A DNA stretch of 40,823 bases, from the NCBI GenBank assembly GCA_017467605.1, contig JAFUSQ010000013.1:1-40823 (forward strand), given 5' to 3'. The position numbers and the translations under genes are program-made. Below, in pieces: positions 277-40,557 of the stretch (its first letter is position 1; each line of letters begins with the position of its first letter). The DNA comes from a bacterium (GTDB lineage: Bacteria > Cyanobacteriota > Vampirovibrionia > Gastranaerophilales > Gastranaerophilaceae). The notes beneath the pieces are model-generated. The model was not told the origin of the DNA, did no database searches, and saw only the letters and a list, made by a program, of their open reading frames with translations.

Positions 277-306
277 CTACATGTGATAAATCACATGTAC
301 ATGTAG
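277..306. promoter_or_regulatory. Palindromic operator upstream of XRE gene
   Basis: ACATGTGAT-AA-ATCACATGT at 279-298 has two 9-bp arms around a 2-bp centre. A second, outer pair CTACATGT (277-284) and ACATGTAG (299-306) overlaps it. It lies 44 bp before the XRE start at 350, where a self-repressing helix-turn-helix protein would bind. The repeat is seen directly; its role as operator is inferred from position and from the palindromes in the other XRE modules. Confidence 0.7.
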
Positions 307-349: not shown

Positions 350-595
350 ATGGATAAGAATATTAAACTCCTTGAACTTGGGAACAAAATCAGGTTTGAA
401 AGAATGAAGCGAAAAATGTCTCAAGAAACCCTTGCTGAACTCGCAAACGTTTCTATTAGAACTATAAGCGATATTGAACGCGGAATAACTGATATTCGAT
501 ACACAAACTTACTACAAATAGCTATGGCTTTTGAAATTACAATCCTTGAACTTTTAGATTTTAGTTATAATACATATCAAAGTACCAGAAAATAA
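350..595 (+). CDS. XRE-family helix-turn-helix regulator (module 1)
   Basis: An 81-residue protein that is almost entirely one Cro/C1-type HTH domain (about residues 10-70). The order is the typical one: KIRFERMKRKMSQETLAELANV for helices 1-2, SIRTISDIERG for the recognition helix, then TNLLQIAMAFEI..LELL. It probably binds the palindrome at 277-306 and represses its own transcription. There is no Shine-Dalgarno; TATAGA at 336-341 lies 8 nt before the ATG, so the mRNA may be leaderless. Unlike its four relatives in the window (13537, 22298, 28341, 39186) it has no intact divergent pilin partner. Only repeat fragments lie upstream and a pilin tail lies downstream (612-659). Confidence 0.9.
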   Translation: MDKNIKLLELGNKIRFERMKRKMSQETLAELANVSIRTISDIERGITDIRYTNLLQIAMAFEITILELLDFSYNTYQSTRK

Positions 596-611
596 TTTGA
601 ACTAATTACTG

Positions 612-659
612 AATAACAGGCGTGACGGGTGGAAAATTACAAAAGATTATCCGTGGTAA
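612..659 (+). pseudogene. Remnant of a prepilin-like gene, C-terminal tail
   Basis: The frame ending at TAA 657-659 reads DGWKITKDYPW, nearly the end of the pilin at 21369-22208 (DGWTIAKDYPW), and DNA identity is obvious over about 36 bp. A stop at 603-605 closes the frame upstream, so only the tail survives. It follows the XRE gene in the same orientation, whereas intact modules have pilin and XRE divergent. Confidence 0.75.
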
Positions 660-669
660 AGACAATAAA

Positions 670-5074: not shown

Positions 5075-5222
5075 TTTTTACTCCCTTCACCTTATATACA
5101 ACTTGATTTTAACTTGCTCAAAAATTCTCGTCAAGCAGTGTTAAGAGGGCTTTTAATTTGCCATTGAACTTTTTGAAAAAAAATGTTAAAATAGAATGTA
5201 TAAAAATAAATGAGGATTGGTT

Positions 5223-5876
5223 ATGAAAATAAAAAAGAATGGCTTTACTTTAGCGGAAGCTTTGATTACATTAACGATTGTCGGTGCTTTAGCTGTGCTT
5301 GTATTGCCCGGATTGATAAAAGATACAACAAGTAGGGCTATGATTGCATTGTTACAAAGTACTTTAAAAAACTTAGATGATGCTATTCAAAACGAATTGG
5401 TTAAAACAAGGGCTACAAATATAAAAGATACTGTTATATATAAAGACCCTGAAGCTTTCTTTAAAAATTTGGATTATGTAAAATATTCATCTGATAATAG
5501 TCAATTCAAGAAAAGTGACGGTACGGCAGTAGCATATAAATCCGTAAACGGTACTTCAATAACTCTTTCGGATATGAGCGAGTCAGTTTTATTGAAAAAC
5601 GGTGTTGTAATAGGTATAAAAAATGGTGATGAAACAAGTAACAGAAGTCATTTGTTTATCGATACAAACGGAACAAAAGAACCAAATATCGGCGGAGTAG
5701 ATTATTTTATTCTGACTTTAATGCATGAAAATAATAAATCTACCGGTGATCATCTTGGTGATATTGGCTGCGGCGGAGCTAGTACAGATACTGATATAGC
5801 TACTTGTAAATCAGCAGGAACAACATGTTTCTGTGCTTTAGAGCGTTCAGGTTTTGACCCGAAATATATGGAATAA
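5223..5876 (+). CDS. Prepilin-like protein, short leader (217 residues)
   Basis: Class III-like signal: basic leader MKIKKNG cut before F (G|FTLAEALITLTIVGALAV), giving a +1 aromatic, E at +5 and a ~20-residue hydrophobic helix. The product should be processed by prepilin peptidase and enter a type IV pilus or pseudopilus; no assembly gene is in the window. The globular domain carries the shared motifs LKNGVVIGI and IDTNGTKEPNIGGVDYF, then paired cysteines (GCGG, TCKSAGTTCFC). ATG 5223 follows GAGGATTG; TTG 5217 also fits. It is 22 nt before the next pilin, probably one mRNA. No XRE partner. Confidence 0.88.
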   Translation: MKIKKNGFTLAEALITLTIVGALAVLVLPGLIKDTTSRAMIALLQSTLKNLDDAIQNELVKTRATNIKDTVIYKDPEAFFKNLDYVKYSSDNSQFKKSDGTAVAYKSVNGTSITLSDMSESVLLKNGVVIGIKNGDETSNRSHLFIDTNGTKEPNIGGVDYFILTLMHENNKSTGDHLGDIGCGGASTDTDIATCKSAGTTCFCALERSGFDPKYME

Positions 5877-5898: not shown

Positions 5899-6657
5899 AT
5901 GAAATCTAATAAAAAAGCTTTTACATTGATAGAATTATTAATAGCGTTATCTGTAGTTGGAGTTTTGGCGGTTATGTCTATTCCGAGTCTTTCTGCTGAT
6001 ATTAACAAAAAACTTCTGACTAATCAGATAAAAAATACATATATTTCAATACAACAACTTGTCGGTGATCAGCTTACAGATATGAGTAATAAGACTACAA
6101 TATTATCAAATACAGATTTTTCAAGTCCTGCAGCTTTATTAAACGATTTAGAAACAGTAGATGATTGTTCTACCGTTGCCGATTGCTGGCCGGAAAATTC
6201 TGAGGATAAACCTGCATACAGAACTCTGAATAAGTTGGAAAATAAAGTAAATGCTCCGACTGCTGCAACAAGAATTCTGAAAAATGGTGTTGCTATATCT
6301 TATGAACTTATTGATCCGGGTATTACGACATCAAAAGATATTTGTTACGGATTATTTTGGGTAGACGTAAATGCAAAAGATAAACCGAATATTATAGGTC
6401 GTGATATGTTTGCATTTTATGTAACAAAATATGGAAAATTAGTAGACGATTTGCAGTGTAAAACCTTACTAAATGAAGCAAAAGTTGCTGCAGGTGAAGA
6501 TCCTGAAGAAGAAAGTTCAGATGATGATGAAGAAAACCCTGCAACAATTGAAGAAAAATGGGAAAAAGCTTGTAAAGAGGTTACAAATGATGCCCCTGAA
6601 AAAGCAACCGAATGCATAACACATATTCAAACAAACGGTTGGAAGATGTTGTTTTAG
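5899..6657 (+). CDS. Prepilin-like protein, short leader (252 residues)
   Basis: Leader MKSNKKA precedes FTLIELLIALSVVGVLAVMSIP, a canonical prepilin helix with E+5 but Ala rather than Gly at -1. Good Shine-Dalgarno AGGAG. The globular part has four or more cysteines (DDCSTVADCW), LKNGVAISYEL and the shared loop VDVNAKDKPNIIGRDMF. Near residues 197-215 there is an acidic run (GEDPEEESSDDDEENPATIEE) not seen in the other pilins here. It ends HIQTNGWKMLF, similar to the GW ending of other members. Co-directional with, and 22 nt after, the pilin at 5223. Confidence 0.88.
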   Translation: MKSNKKAFTLIELLIALSVVGVLAVMSIPSLSADINKKLLTNQIKNTYISIQQLVGDQLTDMSNKTTILSNTDFSSPAALLNDLETVDDCSTVADCWPENSEDKPAYRTLNKLENKVNAPTAATRILKNGVAISYELIDPGITTSKDICYGLFWVDVNAKDKPNIIGRDMFAFYVTKYGKLVDDLQCKTLLNEAKVAAGEDPEEESSDDDEENPATIEEKWEKACKEVTNDAPEKATECITHIQTNGWKMLF

Positions 6658-6669
6658 AGTGAACGGAAA

Positions 6670-6960
6670 GTTGAAAGCGGAAAATTAATTCTGCCCCGAT
6701 TGGGGAAGTGGCACGAAGTGCCGAAGGGGAATTAATTATTGTCGCCCCGGACTGACCAGAAAATTAGTTAAGCTTGCGAAACGTAATTTTCTGGTCATAC
6801 TCGGTGTTTTAGGGTCTGCTTTGAAATAGATTCTGAATCAAGTTCAGAATGACAAAAATTTTGAGTGAGACTGCGTGCTGGGAGCCGTTGTTAGTGAGTT
6901 TTGTAAGATGTACAACGGCGGGAGAGGGTATAAATTTATCAATAAAAAGTAACAATTCCC
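6670..6960. repeat. Cluster of dispersed repeats
   Basis: The gene-free stretch 6658-7007 is repeat material. CTGCCCCGATTGGGGAAG with hairpin GGCAC-GAA-GTGCC (about 6692-6722) recurs degenerate at 191-212. 6741-6817 is the reverse-oriented copy of the composite repeat at 4282-4359. 6828-6854 is a variant 26-bp repeat (GATTCTGAA..TTCAGAATGACA). CCGTTGT (6893-6899) and ACAACGG (6912-6918) form another stem. No gene seen. Confidence 0.75.
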
Positions 6961-8003: not shown

Positions 8004-8103
8004 ATTCTGCGTATATTTGCGGGATTTGTTATGTGGATTATTAGCTATTGAGTTAGTATTTAATATGTGTTATAATTCTATATATAAAAGAGGAAGTTTA
8101 TAT

Positions 8104-8748
8104 ATGAGGAAAATATCAGCCTTTACTTTAGCGGAAGTAATTTTAACAATGACAATTGTCGGTGTAGTTGCGGCAATGACAATTCCTACTTTGCATTACC
8201 AAAAAAATAAAAGAGAATATAGTGCAAAAATAAAAAATTTCTATAGCAGAATGGAAAATGCCATTGTTGATATGGAGATGGATAAAGGTTCATATAGAGA
8301 TATGCTTCTGCCGGCAAATGGCAATGGCTTTGATTGGTATATTGATAATGTTGATCCGTATATGGGGCATCAATATGTTGATACATCAAAGAAAAGAGTA
8401 TATTTTAAAGATGGTTCAAGCCTTTTTAAAGATGGTTCAAGCCTTCAACAGTTTTTCTCAGGCGGGTGTCTTGATGTTGTTTATGATGTAAACGGCGACA
8501 GAGCTCCAAATCGTTCAGGATTTGATCAATATAAGTTTCTATATTGTTTCACTGATGATAATAGAACTAATTGGTTTGGAAACAAGGATATTTTCTTTGG
8601 TACATATGGCAGCGGCTTAAATGCTGTTGGTACAACAAGAGCTCAGATGATTGAAAAATGTAAAGATGCAGAAACTACAAGTTGGTGTACAAAACTTTTA
8701 CAAAACGACCAGTGGGAATTCAAACACGATTATCCGCACAAATTTTAG
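8104..8748 (+). CDS. Prepilin-like protein, short leader (214 residues)
   Basis: Starts at ATG 8104 behind AGAGGAAG; an upstream in-frame start at 8017 adds 29 residues that look non-coding. Leader MRKISA, then FTLAEVILTMTIVGVVAAMTIP. The globular domain contains a perfect 21-bp tandem duplication at 8404-8445 giving FKDGSSLFKDGSSL, exactly at the DG motif conserved among these pilins. The loop VYDVNGDRAPNRSGFDQY is the local version of the family motif. Cysteines near the end (KCKDAETTSWCTK) and the terminus QWEFKHDYPHKF resemble the KDYPW ending of other members. No XRE partner. Confidence 0.88.
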   Translation: MRKISAFTLAEVILTMTIVGVVAAMTIPTLHYQKNKREYSAKIKNFYSRMENAIVDMEMDKGSYRDMLLPANGNGFDWYIDNVDPYMGHQYVDTSKKRVYFKDGSSLFKDGSSLQQFFSGGCLDVVYDVNGDRAPNRSGFDQYKFLYCFTDDNRTNWFGNKDIFFGTYGSGLNAVGTTRAQMIEKCKDAETTSWCTKLLQNDQWEFKHDYPHKF

Positions 8749-12467: not shown

Positions 12468-13469
12468 TTATTTTATCAATTGAAGCATTTGATTCCCGGA
12501 TTTTCCGCCTTTTTCAATCATACTACAACCACCACTTTCGCTTGTAAGATATACCTGGTTAAATTCTGATGTTTTTACATAAATTACAAATGCATCATAA
12601 CCAAATTTATTTGGTCCGTTTTTGCCGTTTATGTCTAAAATAAAAAGTGGTTGCCCAAAAGCATATGTTATTATTGTTATACCATCTAATAATACGTATG
12701 CTGAGCTCACATTCAAAATATTGTTTTTTGAAAACCCACTGCAACCACTATTATACTCATAAGAATTATACATTGGTATGCAGCCTTTCTCGTATGCATT
12801 GCCGTTACATATTTGTGTTACTTTTGTATAATTTGGTAAAAGCGAAGTAAAACTTTTACACCCTTGCCCAACTGAACCGTATGCACAAATATCTTCACCG
12901 TCCATTTTGCGCAAAGCATTGTTTAATACAGAATATGCTTTTTTGAATTGAGTAATTCTTATTCTGTCTTGAATTTTTGTAGTGATTGTCGTTATAGTCA
13001 TTGCCGCAACGACTCCGATTACGCCTATAGTAATAAGTATCTCCGCAAGCGTAAACCCCGCGGAGCGCAGTATTCGTGGAGTCTTGCCAAAGTTTGTAGC
13101 AGAATACCCACTCCGGCGAGGAGAAAAGGCAACCTTCTTTTCCCCTCGCCATGCGGGAGAGGGGGTAGGGGAGAGGGGGCAATGCGTGAGTTGTGAATCA
13201 TGAATAAGTCCGTTACGGTTATTAATCCTCCTGTCATTGCGAGGAGGACGTAAGTCGGACGAAGCAATCCAGTCGTTTCTGTACGAATTTTTCTGGATTG
13301 CCACGCACTCACCGTCGTTCGTGCTCGCTATGACGTTACTCTGACTGTGATAAAGGGTAAATGTATGGACTTTTAAATTTGTTTTATTTACCCCCGTCGT
13401 AATCCCGTTCCTATCACATTTACTCCAAATTTCAGATTTCTTATTAATGGTTCTTAAAACTAAATTCAT
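12468..13469 (-). CDS. Prepilin-like protein with 138-residue repeat-built leader (module 2)
   Basis: The prepilin core begins at residue 139: RSAG|FTLAEILITIGVIGVVAAMTI. Before it the frame stays open through a mosaic of genome repeats from ATG 13469, which has a strong Shine-Dalgarno (AGGAGG). The leader includes CATTGCGAGG-type repeat (13235-13340), a GAGAGGGGGTAGGGG repeat (13143-13181) and the ~66-bp element 13056-13121 at the cleavage site. The core has DGITIITYAF, LDINGKNGPNKFGYDAF and six or more cysteines (CAYGSVGQGCK, CNGNAYEKGC, GGCS). Divergent from the XRE gene at 13537 with a palindromic operator between. A shorter start cannot be excluded, but no ATG with a ribosome site lies just before the core. 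Confidence 0.82.
   Translation of the reverse strand: MNLVLRTINKKSEIWSKCDRNGITTGVNKTNLKVHTFTLYHSQSNVIASTNDGECVAIQKNSYRNDWIASSDLRPPRNDRRINNRNGLIHDSQLTHCPLSPTPSPAWRGEKKVAFSPRRSGYSATNFGKTPRILRSAGFTLAEILITIGVIGVVAAMTITTITTKIQDRIRITQFKKAYSVLNNALRKMDGEDICAYGSVGQGCKSFTSLLPNYTKVTQICNGNAYEKGCIPMYNSYEYNSGCSGFSKNNILNVSSAYVLLDGITIITYAFGQPLFILDINGKNGPNKFGYDAFVIYVKTSEFNQVYLTSESGGCSMIEKGGKSGNQMLQLIK
13056..13121 (-). repeat. Cleavage-site element, copy 1
   Basis: About 66 bp, minus strand from CCTCGCCGG to CTGCGCTCCGCGGGG, translated as PRRSGYSATNFGKTP then RILRSAG. It ends exactly where the prepilin helix (F+1) begins and supplies Gly -1. Copy 2 is at 27588-27652, and a decayed copy is near 10-45. Confidence 0.85.
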
Positions 13470-13486
13470 TGTATCCTCCTATCTTA

Positions 13487-13518
13487 TGTCGCTGATAGCG
13501 ACAGTCGCCACCAGCAAC
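13487..13518. promoter_or_regulatory. Double palindromic operator, module 2
   Basis: TGTCGCT-GAT-AGCGACA (13487-13503) is a perfect 7-bp inverted repeat. It is followed directly by an imperfect copy GTCGCC-ACC-AGCAAC (13504-13518). It lies between the divergent pilin and XRE starts, so one protein could control both promoters. Function inferred from position. Confidence 0.7.
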
Positions 13519-13536
13519 ATAACATAAAATAAATTC

Positions 13537-13794
13537 ATGTGCAACAATTTTAGAAAAGATTTAGGTAAAAATATTAAAAAAATTCGCCTTGCAAAGAAAT
13601 TAACTCAGGAAACAATTTATCTTGAATCAGGTATTTCACGCTCGCATATTGCAATGATTGAATCCGGGAAAAGGGATATTACAGTGAGTGCATTATTTAA
13701 AATTTCAAGGGCTTTGGGAATTAGTATGAGTGAGATTTTTAAATTTGATGATATTAACAAATATAAGTTTGATGTAGAAGAATTGTATAAATAA
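13537..13794 (+). CDS. XRE-family helix-turn-helix regulator (module 2)
   Basis: 85 residues, a single Cro/C1 HTH: NIKKIRLAKKLTQETIYLES, recognition helix SRSHIAMIESG, then ALFKISRALGISMSEIF. Divergent from the pilin at 12468-13469; the 67-bp gap holds a double palindrome (13487-13518). No Shine-Dalgarno; TAAAAT at 13525-13530 is 6 nt before ATG, which suggests a leaderless mRNA. Probably a repressor of itself and of the pilin. Confidence 0.9.
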   Translation: MCNNFRKDLGKNIKKIRLAKKLTQETIYLESGISRSHIAMIESGKRDITVSALFKISRALGISMSEIFKFDDINKYKFDVEELYK

Positions 13795-21368: not shown

Positions 21369-22208
21369 TTACCATGGATAATCTTTTGCAATTGTCCACC
21401 CGTCATTAATAATTTTTTGGGCGCAGCACAAACCTTGCCCTGTTTTTGAGCAGTCAGCATTTACTGTCGAAAGATTGCTGGAATTACATCTTGGGATAAT
21501 AATACCTCTTTCATTTCTCTCGAATGTAAAAACATCTTTGCCAATAGTATTAGGCAGCTCCGCGCCATTTATATCAATATATAACCAAGTTTTAGCAGAA
21601 GAACCGTATTTAACAAAATTTATTAATACAGTGCCATCAGGTAATAATATACTGCTTCTTCCGGAGTTAATCGCATCAACTCCGACTATATCCCCATTTA
21701 AAGCTTTAAAAGAACCGGTAGCACCGCTTCCATTAAATAAGCTATATTTACAAACATTATAATTTTTGCACAAAGTTATTCCCTTGAAATACGGAAGCCA
21801 ATATTTTTTAAAATATTCATCTTCACCGACTTCTTCGGGGTTATCCCAACCGTCATAATCACCGTTATCGGCTACAGATAAAAGCAATGCTTGATTAACT
21901 TGAGAGTAAGCTTTTTTCAATTTTGTAACGGTTTTTTGTTGTTGATAGTGAGTAATAATATTTGGTATAGTCATTGCACTGACTATACCGATTATGCCAA
22001 GTGTTATGAGGGTTTCTGCAAGAGTGAAGGCTAAGTGTTGCCCCCTCACCATTGCCCTCTGCGATTCGCTGACGCTTACTGCACGCAGTCTCGCTCGACT
22101 CGCAAACTCGTCGGCTCGGCTAGTGTCCCGTAGATATTTCCCCCCTACATTTACCCTGTCACTCTGAACTTGTTTCAGGGTCTGTTTAATTTTCCATTTA
22201 ATATTCAT
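21369..22208 (-). CDS. Prepilin-like protein with 60-residue repeat-built leader (module 3)
   Basis: Core HLA|FTLAETLITLGIIGIVSAMTIPN begins at residue 61. The leader from ATG 22208 (Shine-Dalgarno AGAGGT) contains QTLKQVQSD, which is the 26-bp repeat at 22158-22183 translated, then KYLRDTSRADEFASRARLRAVS, another repeat in frame. Core motifs: LLPDGTVLINF, IDINGAELPNTIGKDVF, C-terminal cysteines (CSKTGQGLCC) and the tail DGWTIAKDYPW that also survives as a remnant at 612-659. Divergent from XRE 22298; a TTGATT-17-TATAAT promoter lies 38-66 bp before the ATG. Confidence 0.84.
   Translation of the reverse strand: MNIKWKIKQTLKQVQSDRVNVGGKYLRDTSRADEFASRARLRAVSVSESQRAMVRGQHLAFTLAETLITLGIIGIVSAMTIPNIITHYQQQKTVTKLKKAYSQVNQALLLSVADNGDYDGWDNPEEVGEDEYFKKYWLPYFKGITLCKNYNVCKYSLFNGSGATGSFKALNGDIVGVDAINSGRSSILLPDGTVLINFVKYGSSAKTWLYIDINGAELPNTIGKDVFTFERNERGIIIPRCNSSNLSTVNADCSKTGQGLCCAQKIINDGWTIAKDYPW
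22158..22183. repeat. 26-bp dispersed repeat inside a pilin leader
   Basis: GTCACTCTGAAC-TTGTTTCAGGGTCT, one base off the consensus, translated on the minus strand as QTLKQVQSD within the pilin leader. Confidence 0.85.
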
Positions 22209-22225
22209 TATAATTACCTCTTTAT

Positions 22226-22274
22226 TATAATATATTATTATAAATATTATAACATACTATAATTTATTAATCAA
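22226..22274 (-). promoter_or_regulatory. Pilin promoter with AT-rich inverted repeat, module 3
   Basis: On the minus strand TTGATT (22274-22269), 17-bp spacer, TATAAT (22251-22246). An inverted repeat TATAATAT (22226-22233) / ATATTATA (22244-22251) covers the -10 and start region and could be the XRE operator. AT-rich sequence makes chance symmetry easier here. Confidence 0.6.
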
Positions 22275-22297
22275 TATTTGATTGTTAACATAGCAAT

Positions 22298-22522
22298 ATG
22301 TTAGATGAGGAATTTTTAAGTGAATTTGGGGTCAAATTAAAATTCTATAGAATCAGGCGTAACTATACTCAGGCGCAATTGGGTGAAATGGTTGAAATGT
22401 CTGAACATCGTATAAGCCAGATTGAAAACGGACGATGTAATATAACATTAAAAACAGTAAATCGGTTTTCTAATGCTTTGGAAGTTCCTGCTTCTAAATT
22501 ATTTGTTTTTGAGGAAATTTAG
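22298..22522 (+). CDS. XRE-family helix-turn-helix regulator (module 3)
   Basis: 74 residues, minimal Cro/C1 HTH: KLKFYRIRRNYTQAQLGEMV, SEHRISQIENG, then KTVNRFSNALEVPASKLFVF. Divergent from the pilin at 21369-22208 across 89 bp. No Shine-Dalgarno; TAACAT (22286-22291) is 6 nt before the ATG. The stop overlaps the stop of hydE by 4 nt (convergent). Confidence 0.9.
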   Translation: MLDEEFLSEFGVKLKFYRIRRNYTQAQLGEMVEMSEHRISQIENGRCNITLKTVNRFSNALEVPASKLFVFEEI

Positions 22523-26509: not shown

Positions 26510-28225
26510 TTACTTAATTGTACCTGTGCAAGTTCCATAAGATGGTGTTGGGCTATATTCAATACCGGTAATACGATCTTTAACTTCACATTTTAGTATA
26601 TTGTTCAAACATTCACTATCAGGTAATCTGTTATATAATTTATGTAAATCTGATGCAGAATAATAACTAATATCTACCCATTTTTCGCTTGTATTAGGAC
26701 TACACGCTTTTCCGTCATTAGTAAGGCTGGGACTATAATTGATATATACTTTTACACTATATTGGTTGATAGTATCTCCAGTGACCACAAAAGAAAAATA
26801 ACCTCCTGATCGGCTTCCATTAGCCAAGTATTTCCCATTCTTATTTGAAGATATACCCCAACTAATGTGGCAAAAAGAGCTTGTTCGATTAAGATTACCT
26901 AATTCGCAGCACCAAGATTTATTATCATCATTAACTCCTTGTTCTTGGCAACATTCAAGACTTTTGGGATTGATATCACAAGGACCCTGCGTATCTGGTT
27001 CCTCAGGCTCAGAATTTGAACGTTCATACGGCTCGGTGATTACGTCTTGAGTAGCTTTGCTTAAAATAGTTTTTGTTTTTGAGTTTAATGTAAATGTTCT
27101 CAAGTCTTGTCCTAAAACATTCGGTCCTTTTTTACCGTTGATATCTATTAAAACTTGTGGAGAATTCGCAGATATTTGAGGTGTCAAACAAATACTTGAA
27201 CCGTTTTTTAAACTCCCGCAAGCTCCTTTGAATTCAGGATTATAAACTTTCTTGTCTTTGTCTTTGTATTCATAATAAACATTTGCAAAACAATCCCTGT
27301 TACTATTCCCGCAATATTTAGAAAGTTTCAGATATTTTTTTATAAATTGTCCTGAATTATCTAAATAACTTTCGGGTTCTTCTGAAACATACATCATTGT
27401 ACTGAAATATGAACCTTTATTTTCAGTAACAATTAAATTATCTAAAGCATTATTTAATGTCTTTGTCATTCTTTCAAACCCTAAATCAAAAGATTTCTGT
27501 CTGTATTTAGAGACAAACACAGGTAAAACAAGTGCTGATATTACTCCAACTATTACACAGGCTAATAGGACTTCGGTTAAAGTAAATCCCGCGGAGCGCA
27601 GGAGTCGTGGAGTCTTTCCAAAGATTGTAGCATTATGCCCCGTCCGGCGAGGACCTTCGGTGAGGGTGAAGGCTATCTTTTTAAAGTGAATAGGTAGATA
27701 AGTTGATAAGTTGATAAGTTCGTTACGGTTATTAAGCCTCCCATCATTGCGAGGAGGATTGTCATTCTGAGGGCGAAGCCCGAAGAATCGCAATACCTTA
27801 CAAGATTTGCTTGACATTGAGATCTTTCGCCCTGCGGGCTCAAGATGACGATAACCGTCATTGCGAGGAGCAAAGCGACGAAGCAATCCAGACTGCCCCC
27901 TCTCCTGTCCTTCGGACACCCTCTCCCGTTGGGCGAGGGAATTACATTTACCCCTGTCACCCTGAACTTGATTCAGGGTCTTATTCAGAATCTTAAAATT
28001 TTTGTGTGAGCCTGTTTCCGTCGGCGCAGCCGTTAGGTGTTTCAGGGTCTTTTCCCTAACGGGTGAAACCCCACCCGAATTTCTAACACTCATAAACTCG
28101 TGTTGAAATTCTTCCCTCCCCTTGTCAGGGGAGGATAAGAGGGGTCTTAATAATTTACCCCTATATTTACCCCTGTGTTTTAGTACCGTTTTTATTTTTT
28201 TTATATTCAACAAATTCTTCTCCAT
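26510..28225 (-). CDS. Prepilin-like protein with 213-residue repeat-built leader (module 4)
   Basis: 571 residues from ATG 28225; the open frame reaches TTG 28282, but that lies in the -35 of a promoter. The leader is a mosaic of translated repeats: [46 protein letters not shown]. It holds a first prepilin-like motif KKIAFTLTEG (183-191), then the ~66-bp element, then the true core RSAG|FTLTEVLLACVIVGVISALVLP (214 on). The core has KNGSSICLTP and IDINGKKGPNVLGQD. A ~180-residue Cys-rich C-terminal extension (PKSLECCQEQG.., FSFVVTGDTINQYSVKVYINY) is unique among the pilins here. No Shine-Dalgarno. Divergent from XRE 28341. Confidence 0.78.
   Translation of the reverse strand: MEKNLLNIKKIKTVLKHRGKYRGKLLRPLLSSPDKGREEFQHEFMSVRNSGGVSPVREKTLKHLTAAPTETGSHKNFKILNKTLNQVQGDRGKCNSLAQRERVSEGQERGQSGLLRRFAPRNDGYRHLEPAGRKISMSSKSCKVLRFFGLRPQNDNPPRNDGRLNNRNELINLSTYLPIHFKKIAFTLTEGPRRTGHNATIFGKTPRLLRSAGFTLTEVLLACVIVGVISALVLPVFVSKYRQKSFDLGFERMTKTLNNALDNLIVTENKGSYFSTMMYVSEEPESYLDNSGQFIKKYLKLSKYCGNSNRDCFANVYYEYKDKDKKVYNPEFKGACGSLKNGSSICLTPQISANSPQVLIDINGKKGPNVLGQDLRTFTLNSKTKTILSKATQDVITEPYERSNSEPEEPDTQGPCDINPKSLECCQEQGVNDDNKSWCCELGNLNRTSSFCHISWGISSNKNGKYLANGSRSGGYFSFVVTGDTINQYSVKVYINYSPSLTNDGKACSPNTSEKWVDISYYSASDLHKLYNRLPDSECLNNILKCEVKDRITGIEYSPTPSYGTCTGTIK
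27588..27652 (-). repeat. Cleavage-site element, copy 2
   Basis: Minus strand CCTCGCCGGACGG..CTGCGCTCCGCGGG, translated PRRTGHNATIFGKTP then RLLRSAG. It differs from copy 1 (13056-13121) at about a dozen positions but keeps frame. Flanked by GCCTTCACCCTCACCGAAGG on one side and TTTACTTTAACCGAAG on the other: both encode FTLTE. Confidence 0.85.
27690..28190. repeat. Mosaic of dispersed repeats forming a pilin leader
   Basis: In + orientation: CATTGCGAGGAGGATTGTCATTCTGAGGGCGAAGCCCGAAGAATC (27746-27790, two units), CATTGCGAGGAGCAAAGCGACGAAGCAATCC (27858-27889), a CCCTCTCCTGTCC..CTCTCCCGTTGGGCGAGG unit (27897-27938), the 26-bp repeat (27956-27981) and a CCCCTTGTCAGGGGAGGATAAGAGGGG unit (28120-28146). 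All lie inside the open frame of the pilin on the minus strand. Confidence 0.85.
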
Positions 28226-28252
28226 AATCCAATTTAAATAATCCACATGAAT

Positions 28253-28280
28253 TCTATATAATATAATGAATTTTGTCAAC
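28253..28280 (-). promoter_or_regulatory. Pilin promoter, module 4
   Basis: Minus strand TTGACA (28280-28275), 16-bp spacer, TATAGA (28258-28253). It sits 28 bp before ATG 28225, which is why the TTG at 28282 is not taken as the start. TTGTCAACAA (28274-28283) is a short palindrome and AACAAT/ATTGTT pair at 28279-28284 and 28317-28322; these are weak operator candidates. Confidence 0.55.
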
Positions 28281-28340
28281 AATTTTCGCTATAATAGTTA
28301 GTAAAGTTTCTCTCAGATTGTTAATAAACTAAAATATATT

Positions 28341-28652
28341 ATGTTTAAGCAAAAATTCGCACTCAAGTTGAAACAAATAAGGAAGTCGAGAAAATTTACG
28401 CAGGAAAAGTTAGCAGAACTTGTTGGGGTAGATTTTAGATATATATCGTTACTTGAAAATGCGAAGAGCTTTCCTTCTTGTGAATTAATAGAAAAATTAG
28501 CGTTGGCATTAAATGTTACATATCGTGAAATGTTTGATTTTGACAATGATTTTTCTCGAATTGATATTGAAAAAGAAATAATAAATACAGTTAAAAATAT
28601 TGATGATAAAAATTTAAAAATTCTTTATTCATTTTCAAAGCAATTATTATAA
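28341..28652 (+). CDS. XRE-family helix-turn-helix regulator (module 4)
   Basis: 103 residues: HTH KLKQIRKSRKFTQEKLAELV, DFRYISLLENA, LIEKLALALNVTYREMFDF, then a 35-residue tail (IDIEKEIINTVKNIDDKNLK) absent from modules 1-3. Divergent from the pilin at 26510-28225. No Shine-Dalgarno; TAAAAT (28330-28335) ends 5 nt before the ATG, which suggests a leaderless mRNA. Confidence 0.9.
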   Translation: MFKQKFALKLKQIRKSRKFTQEKLAELVGVDFRYISLLENAKSFPSCELIEKLALALNVTYREMFDFDNDFSRIDIEKEIINTVKNIDDKNLKILYSFSKQLL

Positions 28653-38569: not shown

Positions 38570-38608
38570 TTTTATTTCTCCTTTTTGTTATTATAATATT
38601 TTTATTAT

Positions 38609-38671
38609 GTCACCCTGAACTTGATTCAGGGTCTGTATTGAAACATATTCCAAAACGAGTTCGGAATGACA
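38609..38671. repeat. 26-bp repeat plus variant between rplU and rpmA
   Basis: GTCACCCTGAAC-TTGATTCAGGGTCT (38609-38634), then a degenerate second copy ending GAGTTCGGAATGACA (38657-38671). Lies in the 107-bp gap of the ribosomal operon. Confidence 0.85.
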
Positions 38672-39185: not shown

Positions 39186-39512
39186 TTAATTATAAACTAT
39201 TGCATTTATAACGCGGCAAATCCTGTCAATTTCACTCGGTGGAAGATCTTTCACCATATGTATCAGAGAATTTTCTTTCAACAATACTGGATCAATATTC
39301 ATATTTTTGTAAAACAAATTAATATCAATGTTTAAAACTTTTATAAGTTTAAGAAACGTAGGAACACTTGGGAAATGGACTCCTCTTTCAATTTTACCCA
39401 ATTGTTTATCATCAATGTCTATAATCTCAGCAAGCTGATACTGAGTCAGACCATTAGCCTTTCTATAATTTTTAACTAACTCACCTAACTCACTCATGTC
39501 AAGCGTTTTCAT
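39186..39512 (-). CDS. XRE-family helix-turn-helix regulator (module 5)
   Basis: 108 residues: HTH LVKNYRKANGLTQYQLAEII, DDKQLGKIERG, FLKLIKVLNIDINLFY, followed by a 35-residue tail with KDLPPSEIDRICRVINAIV. This is the only XRE gene of the five with a strong Shine-Dalgarno (GGAGGGG). Divergent from the pilin at 39649 over 136 bp that hold two palindromic operator copies (39560-39607). Confidence 0.92.
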   Translation of the reverse strand: MKTLDMSELGELVKNYRKANGLTQYQLAEIIDIDDKQLGKIERGVHFPSVPTFLKLIKVLNIDINLFYKNMNIDPVLLKENSLIHMVKDLPPSEIDRICRVINAIVYN

Positions 39513-39559
39513 AACCCCTCCAGACTAAAATGTTATAAATAATATTCATTATTTTAAAC

Positions 39560-39610
39560 AACGCGTAAACGCAGTTTTATATTGACAATAACGCGTATAC
39601 GCGTTATAAT
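39560..39610 (+). promoter_or_regulatory. Consensus pilin promoter with operator in its spacer, module 5
   Basis: TTGACA (39582-39587), 17 bp, TATAAT (39605-39610): a perfect sigma-70 consensus. The spacer is occupied by a perfect 20-bp palindrome ATAACGCGTATACGCGTTAT (39588-39607). An imperfect copy AACGCGTAAACGCAGTT is at 39560-39576, toward the XRE gene. A bound repressor would block RNA polymerase directly. Confidence 0.88.
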
Positions 39611-39648
39611 ATTAATTAGGTTGGGCAAATTTATATCGAAAGGAAGTT

Positions 39649-40557
39649 ATGATTAAAAGAGAATTAAAAAACAACATTCAAGCTATCCGCAAAGGTATAA
39701 TTAACTGTCATTCTGAACTTGTTTCAGAATCTTTTAAAAATCAGACCCTGAAACAAGTTCAGGGTGACAAAAATAAAAAAGCTGCATTCACATTGGCGGA
39801 AGTGCTTATCACATTGGGTATTATCGGAGTAGTTGCAGCCATGACAATACCGACACTTATGGCAAATATCAAAGGCAAACAGTATGCAACAGGATTTAAG
39901 AAAGAACTTTCAACCCTAAACCAAATGGTTAGAATGAATAAAGCTCAGTACGATTGGGATTTTGCTACGGCATTAGGTACACCTGTAGCTCATGGACATG
40001 GAAGTGACTGCAATGCAAACTCAAATCCTGAAAGCGATAACTCTATTTGTGCAATATTTAATGCTAATCTGAAAGGAATTACATTTAATCCATATTATTG
40101 GATTTGGCCTGGCAATAAAGGAACAAAATTAGGTATTGATGAAGATAATCCGGTAGGTGACATTGGCTATTATATAAAAGTTCATGAAGCTGATCCGTGG
40201 TCTTCTCCATTGACAGACCTTTCAGCGAGATATTTATTGTCAGATGGCAGTATAATATTGCTTCCAGCTTTCATGGGAGAACCATATTGTCATTTAACAG
40301 AAGGTAAGACATTAAGAGATGAATTGCTTAATGAAAATAATTTCTACTATGTGTGCACCGGATACATTGATGTAAATGGCGGAGATTTGCCAAATGAAGA
40401 AGTAACCTGTTCGACAGGAACAACGTCATACGATTTGAATGAACCTTGTATTGTTAAAAATAGTCATGTCAAAGATGTTTTCCCTGTTGTATTCTATGAC
40501 AGTACTGTTGCCCCTGCAACAAACGCCGCACAGTATGTTTTGAATAATACGAAATAA
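39649..40557 (+). CDS. Prepilin-like protein with 46-residue repeat-built leader (module 5)
   Basis: 302 residues. ATG 39649 follows AAGGAAG. The leader contains CHSELVSESF and QTLKQVQGD, two oppositely oriented copies of the 26-bp repeat (39707-39732, 39743-39768) translated in frame. The core is KKAA|FTLAEVLITLGIIGVVAAMTIPTL from residue 47. Later: LLSDGSIILLP and IDVNGGDLPNE, then a Cys-containing end (VTCSTGTTSYDLNEPC). It lacks the usual GxDxF after the loop and the KDYPW-type tail. Driven by a consensus promoter with embedded operator. Confidence 0.88.
   Translation: MIKRELKNNIQAIRKGIINCHSELVSESFKNQTLKQVQGDKNKKAAFTLAEVLITLGIIGVVAAMTIPTLMANIKGKQYATGFKKELSTLNQMVRMNKAQYDWDFATALGTPVAHGHGSDCNANSNPESDNSICAIFNANLKGITFNPYYWIWPGNKGTKLGIDEDNPVGDIGYYIKVHEADPWSSPLTDLSARYLLSDGSIILLPAFMGEPYCHLTEGKTLRDELLNENNFYYVCTGYIDVNGGDLPNEEVTCSTGTTSYDLNEPCIVKNSHVKDVFPVVFYDSTVAPATNAAQYVLNNTK
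39707..39768. repeat. Inverted pair of 26-bp repeats inside a pilin leader
   Basis: 39707-39732 GTCATTCTGAAC-TTGTTTCAGAATCT and 39743-39768 AGACCCTGAAAC-AAGTTCAGGGTGAC, head to head, 10 bp apart, both translated. Confidence 0.9.

Follow-up and report, generated by a model that had tools for sequence, protein, structure and literature searches.

Prepilin genes back-to-back with small XRE regulators in Gastranaerophilaceae: probable locus-fixed control of exchangeable pilins

Prepilin and XRE modules in the window

The window, which is the whole stretch of DNA analysed here, corresponds to contig C51 (positions 1-40823) of a 2.19 Mb Gastranaerophilaceae genome distributed over 79 contigs. Four divergent gene pairs, each formed by a prepilin and a small XRE-type regulator, were found at the positions originally predicted (12468-13794, 21369-22522, 26510-28652 and 39186-40557), and are referred to below as modules A to D (Table 1). 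The shared promoter regions had been put at 67-136 bp; the gaps between ORF starts are 67, 89, 58 and 136 bp. As had also been proposed, the three other prepilins of the window have no XRE gene within 1.5 kb, and a fifth XRE gene (module E) lies beside pilin remnants, namely a broken leader-like ORF and a C-terminal fragment. At positions 1-340, the contig ends inside this broken module, where a leader ORF is interrupted by a stop codon and the start of a second ORF, possibly that of an insertion element, runs off the contig.

Table 1. Coordinates of prepilin, XRE and regulatory features in the window
Feature	Position	Strand	Remarks
Module E (degenerate) XRE	350..595	+	palindromic upstream region, RBS, leader ORF broken by stop
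Module E candidate operator ACATGTGATAAATCACATGT	279..298	.	from sequence
Module E pilin C-terminal remnant	623..666	+	WKITKDYPW*; inverted copy of pilin B end
Prepilin without XRE partner	5217..5876	+	
Prepilin without XRE partner	5899..6657	+	
Prepilin without XRE partner	8017..8748	+	best G037 match 63%
Module A prepilin	12468..13469	-	repeat-derived leader; mature part from F13055; TIGR02532
Module A FGKTPR-type leader repeat ending in FTLAE	13051..13122	-	
Module A candidate operator TGTCGCTATCAGCGACA	13487..13503	.	single site at <=2 mismatches in 1.165 Mb; palindrome above shuffles
Module A XRE, 85 aa	13537..13794	+	HTH_3 59 bits
Module B prepilin	21369..22208	-	mature part from F22028
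Module B XRE, 74 aa	22298..22522	+	HTH_3/HTH_31
Module C prepilin, nested leader repeat insertions	26510..28282	-	two FTLTE copies, F27670 and F27586
Module C FGKTPR-type leader repeat	27582..27653	-	86% identical to module A copy
Module C XRE, 103 aa	28341..28652	+	HTH_3 46 bits
Module D XRE, putative repressor, 108 aa	39186..39512	-	adjoins rplU/rpmA; HTH_3 47 bits
Module D partial second copy of candidate operator, AACGCGTAAACGC	39560..39572	.	
Module D predicted pilin promoter, TTGACA-17 bp-TATAAT	39582..39610	+	from sequence; best of 68
Module D candidate operator AACGCGTATACGCGTT in promoter spacer	39590..39605	.	same in four species
Module D prepilin	39649..40557	+	leader 39649-39786; mature from F39787; N_methyl above cut-off

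The XRE proteins of the window score 40-59 bits against the Pfam model HTH_3, the cut-off of which is 23, and no Pfam domain besides the HTH was found in them. Membership of the RstR phage repressor family (NF041951) was rejected, as XREs A to D remain below its NCBIfam cut-off of 80 (49 bits for C, 44 for D, and lower values for A and B). Regarding their partners, prepilins A, C and D exceed the cut-off of N_methyl when the whole genome is scanned, and they also exceed that of TIGR02532. Prepilin B is absent among the 150 N_methyl matches listed; it carries a clear FTLAE motif and a hydrophobic helix, and it was recovered by an HMM trained on its own genome. Both families are abundant, with at least 150 matches genome-wide to N_methyl (PF07963), all listed ones over the cut-off, and at least 150 to HTH_3. 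The prepilins bear a class III signal, that is, a [GA]FxxxE cleavage motif and a hydrophobic helix. The structural model of pilin B shows a single long N-terminal helix (residues 3-55) and a small sheet at a pLDDT of 81, with no PDB match at E<=0.001. No named relative of pilin D was confirmed in the genome_contigs collection. A GspE/PilB-type ATPase is clearly encoded in the genome (T2SSE, E 8.7e-126). Absence of a prepilin peptidase was not upheld, given a weak full-length match to Peptidase_A24 (PF01478) at C46:13675-14100 (E 0.013) and homologues in the same genus that reach 1.4e-5; the candidate peptidase of this genus is highly divergent from the Pfam model.

The pilin ORFs of the window are long because repeat-derived leaders of about 46-230 residues stand before FTLAE; the mature parts start at 13055, 22028, 27586 and 39787. 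In this genome, leaders are generally enlarged and composed of repeats, exceeding 30 residues in 53 of the 97 prepilins having an RBS-preceded ATG. Such leaders are presumably tolerated because the prepilin peptidase would remove them. Three repeat types are concentrated there and always read in the pilin orientation, with 19/21 copies of FGKTPR, 15/18 of LIHFKK and 6/6 of PSPAGRG lying inside pilin leaders; none of the three was detected in 0.87 Mb of G037, a second species of the genus. The repeat at 13051-13122 and 27582-27653, about 72-84 bp long and ending in GFTLAE, lies almost exclusively in prepilin leaders and, when inserted at the cleavage motif, can restore it; the LIHFKK and PSPAGRG repeats behave similarly. 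Some leader repeats are nested at FTLAE itself, as in module C, where KKIAFTLTE is followed by GPRRTGHNATIFGKTPRLLRSAG and then by FTLTEVLL. A palindromic repeat, TGTCATTCTGAACTTG...AAGTTCAGGGTGACA (window positions 6805-6854, 38599-38671 and 39706-39778), is present in 95 copies in 1.165 Mb, in and between genes and about one third of them near pilin leaders; G037 has these repeats too.

Pairing across the genome and the family

The genome survey covered 1.165 Mb (53%) of the 2.19 Mb and was read with genome-specific HMMs, which identified 122 ORFs for prepilins and 130 for XREs. For 87 of the 122 prepilins, the nearest XRE gene is divergent and upstream, the distance between the pilin motif (FTLAE) and the HTH being 110-784 bp in 86 pairs and 1431 bp in one. 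Thirty-three prepilins have no XRE at all inside 1.5 kb, and only two have their nearest XRE within this distance in another arrangement, one of them a hit wrongly taken for a pilin. Between neighbouring called genes, pilin/XRE pairs account for 82 of the 262 divergent adjacencies, against 5.9 expected and a maximum of 13 in 2000 label shuffles; viewed from the regulators, 116 divergent XRE adjacencies were counted, the partner being a pilin in 82 and another gene in 34. The genome holds well over a hundred pilin genes, the majority of which stand back-to-back with their own small XRE.

The arrangement extends to relatives. In 0.87 Mb of G037, all 21 of the 21 close pairs are divergent, with a spacing of 104-243 bp and mostly short leaders. 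Divergent pairs were also seen in genera g1, g2, g4, g6, g10 and g12, and at six places among 80 further loci; besides its own genus, the pattern occurs in no fewer than five genera of the family. Across 117 genomes of the phylum, scored prepilins number between 7 and at least 64 in family members (12-210 candidates), against 0-15 outside the family. Prepilin and XRE candidate counts rise jointly within the family (rho 0.69), and among seven genomes of the genus they do so almost one for one (rho 0.99, slope 0.9). The pairing of one regulator with each pilin, proposed from four instances, is real genome-wide, and the recurrence in G037 and in other genera runs against the notion that related genomes lack enrichment.

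Promoters, candidate operators and the separate fates of regulator and pilin

A pilin-directed TTGACA/TATAAT promoter of the sigma-70 type was found in 68 of 87 modules, compared with 29.7+-3.3 in shuffled sequence. Palindromes were detected in 17/85 modules, whereas the rate in divergent regions of other kinds is 3/48 (Fisher p 0.043), an over-representation that holds only when they are counted anywhere in the core region; they vary between modules, and most modules have no statistically strong one. Dyads placed in the promoter spacer were rejected as a general rule (7/68 at p<=0.05, KS p 0.13). Eight candidate operators were scanned against the 1.165 Mb, of which five match a single site at up to two mismatches (D, A, C61:45566, C59:4349 and C34:15880), one (C79:11019) matched its own place alone, with two mismatches, and the two most AT-rich match 10 sites (C12:10578) and 4 sites (C2:12565).

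In module D, the interval that separates TTGACA from TATAAT in the pilin promoter is occupied by the palindrome AACGCGTATACGCGTT, and weaker copies lie on the XRE side. Positional orthologues of this XRE, 43-47% identical, are present in G157, G122 and G037, where the locus likewise adjoins rpmA (99%) and rplU (92%) and the candidate operator is placed identically. The pattern AACGCGYATRCGCGTT was found once each in 4 of 46 genus genomes, exactly those with XRE-D, and in 0 of the 42 others, a count uncorrected for phylogeny, as the four genomes may share ancestry. In other genera, homologous XREs likewise keep operator and promoter parts, for example a 21-bp identity, TTTGTTTATAAACAAATAAAA. 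The comparisons at locus D are strong evidence that XRE-D binds AACGCGTATACGCGTT on the pilin promoter, and the overlap of promoter and operator suggests direct repression. Therefore, given an operator located in the promoter spacer and co-occurring with its regulator, it is very probable that every XRE acts as the repressor of its own pilin, by way of an operator private to it.

The regulator and the pilin body show no common history. In 82 pairs, pilin-body similarity shows no correlation with XRE similarity (Mantel r -0.02, p 0.72) and the best partners agree in 1/82 cases, whereby duplication of modules as units was rejected. Pilins of this genome that are up to 75% identical have unrelated XREs, an example being pilin B, the body of which is 75% identical to that of a pilin at C6:34895 with an unrelated regulator. 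Across species, locus D retains its XRE, and its pilin bodies are unrelated past the first 50-70 residues. A similar result was obtained at five loci syntenic with G037 (median orthologue identity 78%), where XREs are 40-71% identical and bodies 26-29%, the background of random pilin-body pairs being 30.8+-8.0%. In other genera, homologous XREs of 52-78% identity keep promoter and operator parts beside pilins of 24-29%, and the two same-genus pairs in this set have bodies of 26% and 43%. The most telling comparison is that of the near-identical genomes G117 and G163, the XREs of which are 99% identical. DNA identity is 94% from the flanking gene across the XRE and promoter, drops to 69% in the pilin and returns to 92.5% beyond it, which places the replacement between the leader and a point just beyond the stop codon. 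Here a pilin body was replaced in place beside a constant promoter, between species rather than within a strain. Judged from these comparisons, XRE and pilin body are inherited independently, with the XRE and promoter fixed to the locus and the body exchanged. Independent inheritance was not part of the original prediction, of which the one-regulator-per-pilin arrangement stands, supported by the probable private operators; individual switching and a use in adhesion, predation or contact would be further possibilities.

Whole modules also come and go. The site of module C between trxB and gene 28766 is empty in five genomes of the genus, is occupied in G117 by another pilin/XRE pair, and is an insertion hotspot with alternative cargo; the stop codon of the module C XRE adjoins conserved sequence upstream of gene 28766. 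In other species (loci L061, L063, L067 and L074), the same site contains unrelated ORFs of about 650-670 residues with CxxC motifs (CPACGVKxL, CACCGSxLLPH). At 12 of 15 module sites testable in G037, neither pilin nor XRE was found, some of the gaps between flanking genes being 1-58 bp. Module ends coincide with stop codons, at times overlapping that of the neighbour, and inspection of 87 modules revealed no shared terminal repeats, integrase sites or other signature at the ends; no recombinase was found either. Integron-type cassettes were accordingly rejected, a common recombination site being missing. No paired pilin has a G037 match above 55%, whereas values of up to 72% occur among the unpaired ones, as would fit a small conserved pilin core plus a large variable set.

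Interpretation, alternatives and known systems

It is probable that each module consists of a locus-fixed control head and an exchangeable pilin, the heads repressing through private operators. The head would combine three elements, namely an XRE autorepressor that is small and presumably dimeric, a strong sigma-70 promoter directed at the pilin, and palindromic operators that are private to the module and lie on that promoter. By binding its own operator, the XRE would shut off the pilin promoter and probably also restrain its own expression, so that every pilin might be switched or metered separately, without cross-talk. The pilin body could be swapped by recombination through the near-invariant N-terminal segment (FTLAEVLITLGIIG...) and sometimes through leader repeats, the head staying behind, while entire modules would also be gained or lost between genes. 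The expected outcome is a large set of surface pilins that changes fast, each pilin being under its own repression and presumably exported through the type IV pilus machinery. More tentatively, the genome may hold more than 100 such locus-fixed private heads, each independently switching an exchangeable body, so that both the set of pilins that is ON and the bodies themselves vary; derepression, stochastic or signal-driven, would then provide surface variation that could benefit the cell.

The main rival is low-level expression of incoming cargo, according to which the XREs are expression governors, the autorepression of which keeps mobile cargo low and constant without any ON/OFF or surface-variation programme, pilins merely being the commonest cargo. 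This is possible, if somewhat doubtful. Private operators on the pilin promoter are compatible with governors and with switching alike, and the governor explanation stays alive because 34 XREs face non-pilin genes; module sites that are empty in relatives, and XREs that are HTH-only in Pfam and have RstR and antitoxin-type repressors as nearest NCBIfam families, below cut-off, point the same way. Against it, pilins make up about 71% of XRE-divergent partners and only about 10% of genes.

It is unlikely that bodies are not swapped at all and instead diverge extremely fast in place, by point mutation under diversifying selection. The low ceiling of paired pilins in G037 (<=55%), in spite of the median orthologue identity of 78%, would fit such divergence, but for the pilins at each of the five syntenic loci closer relatives exist elsewhere, at other loci, and leaders differ among close bodies. 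Additionally, the L247 pilin is 62% identical to an other-locus pilin of another species and 60% to its positional partner, although the flanks are 92-94% identical.

A selfish, addiction-like pair, in which harm would come from the pilin, or from its product, once unrepressed, and the XRE would persist as a repressing antidote, seems very improbable. The patchy presence of modules and the resemblance of the XREs to HipB/Y4mF-type antitoxins and phage repressors (below family cut-offs) agree with it, but the free exchange of partners breaks any protein-level specificity between toxin and antidote, and many prepilins have no XRE. Mere coincidence, whereby XREs here are generally divergent from their neighbours and pilins are common, would accommodate the 116 divergent adjacencies with their 34 non-pilin partners, but has a negligible probability, as 82 pilin pairs stand against 13.3 expected (maximum 25 in 2000 shuffles) with XRE positions fixed.

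The proposed control heads with exchangeable pilins share elements with several known systems. In Neisseria, pilE/pilS consists of one or few expression loci and promoterless silent donors. There too, the pilin N-terminal segment is constant and recombination replaces the body while the promoter stays; in contrast, about 71% of the copies described here have their own divergent XRE and usually a sigma-70-like promoter, and silent donors of the pilE/pilS type were rejected since most copies carry that XRE and a promoter-like site. Phage and plasmid autorepressors (RstR, DicA, cI/Cro) similarly combine a small HTH protein, a divergent promoter and several palindromic operators, but here the target is a prepilin, there are more than 100 copies per genome and no phage or plasmid genes were seen beside the window modules. 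Bacteroides SusC/D arrays are governed by dedicated ECF sigma/anti-sigma pairs. They resemble the present case as a large paralogous surface family of a gut bacterium with a dedicated regulator per locus, whereas here the regulator is single-domain and repressor-like, with no recognised sensor, and the prepilin cargo changes while the regulator stays. The leader repeats recall Rickettsia palindromic elements, which are also short in-frame repeats in protein genes, but they are concentrated in cleavable prepilin leaders and one type ends in a new FTLAE.

On prepilins or pilin/XRE systems in Gastranaerophilales, the literature searched, which covered few subscription journals or preprints, yielded no more than general references to type IV pili genes. 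The exchange of pilin bodies and the use of dedicated regulators are known, and the parallel private-operator arrangement is undescribed in that literature. It looks like a novel means of assembling and regulating a surface repertoire that is both large and changeable. If the proposal is true, more than 100 separately repressed, exchangeable pilins in 2.2 Mb would rank among the largest controlled surface families of bacteria, and would offer more than 100 natural repressor/operator pairs of apparently non-overlapping specificity, as well as a direct way into the separate inheritance of regulators and cargo. Gastranaerophilales, uncultured relatives of cyanobacteria, are common in the gut, and these modules open a testable route to how they hold hosts, partners or prey, or evade phages and immunity.

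The partners of the 34 XREs that face non-pilin genes (L010-L017, L021-L028, L038-L040 and others) include a small protein family with GGVxYNANQVKG-like starts, a protein resembling lytic transglycosylases, two glycosyltransferases, and pilins that are broken or reduced to the leader.
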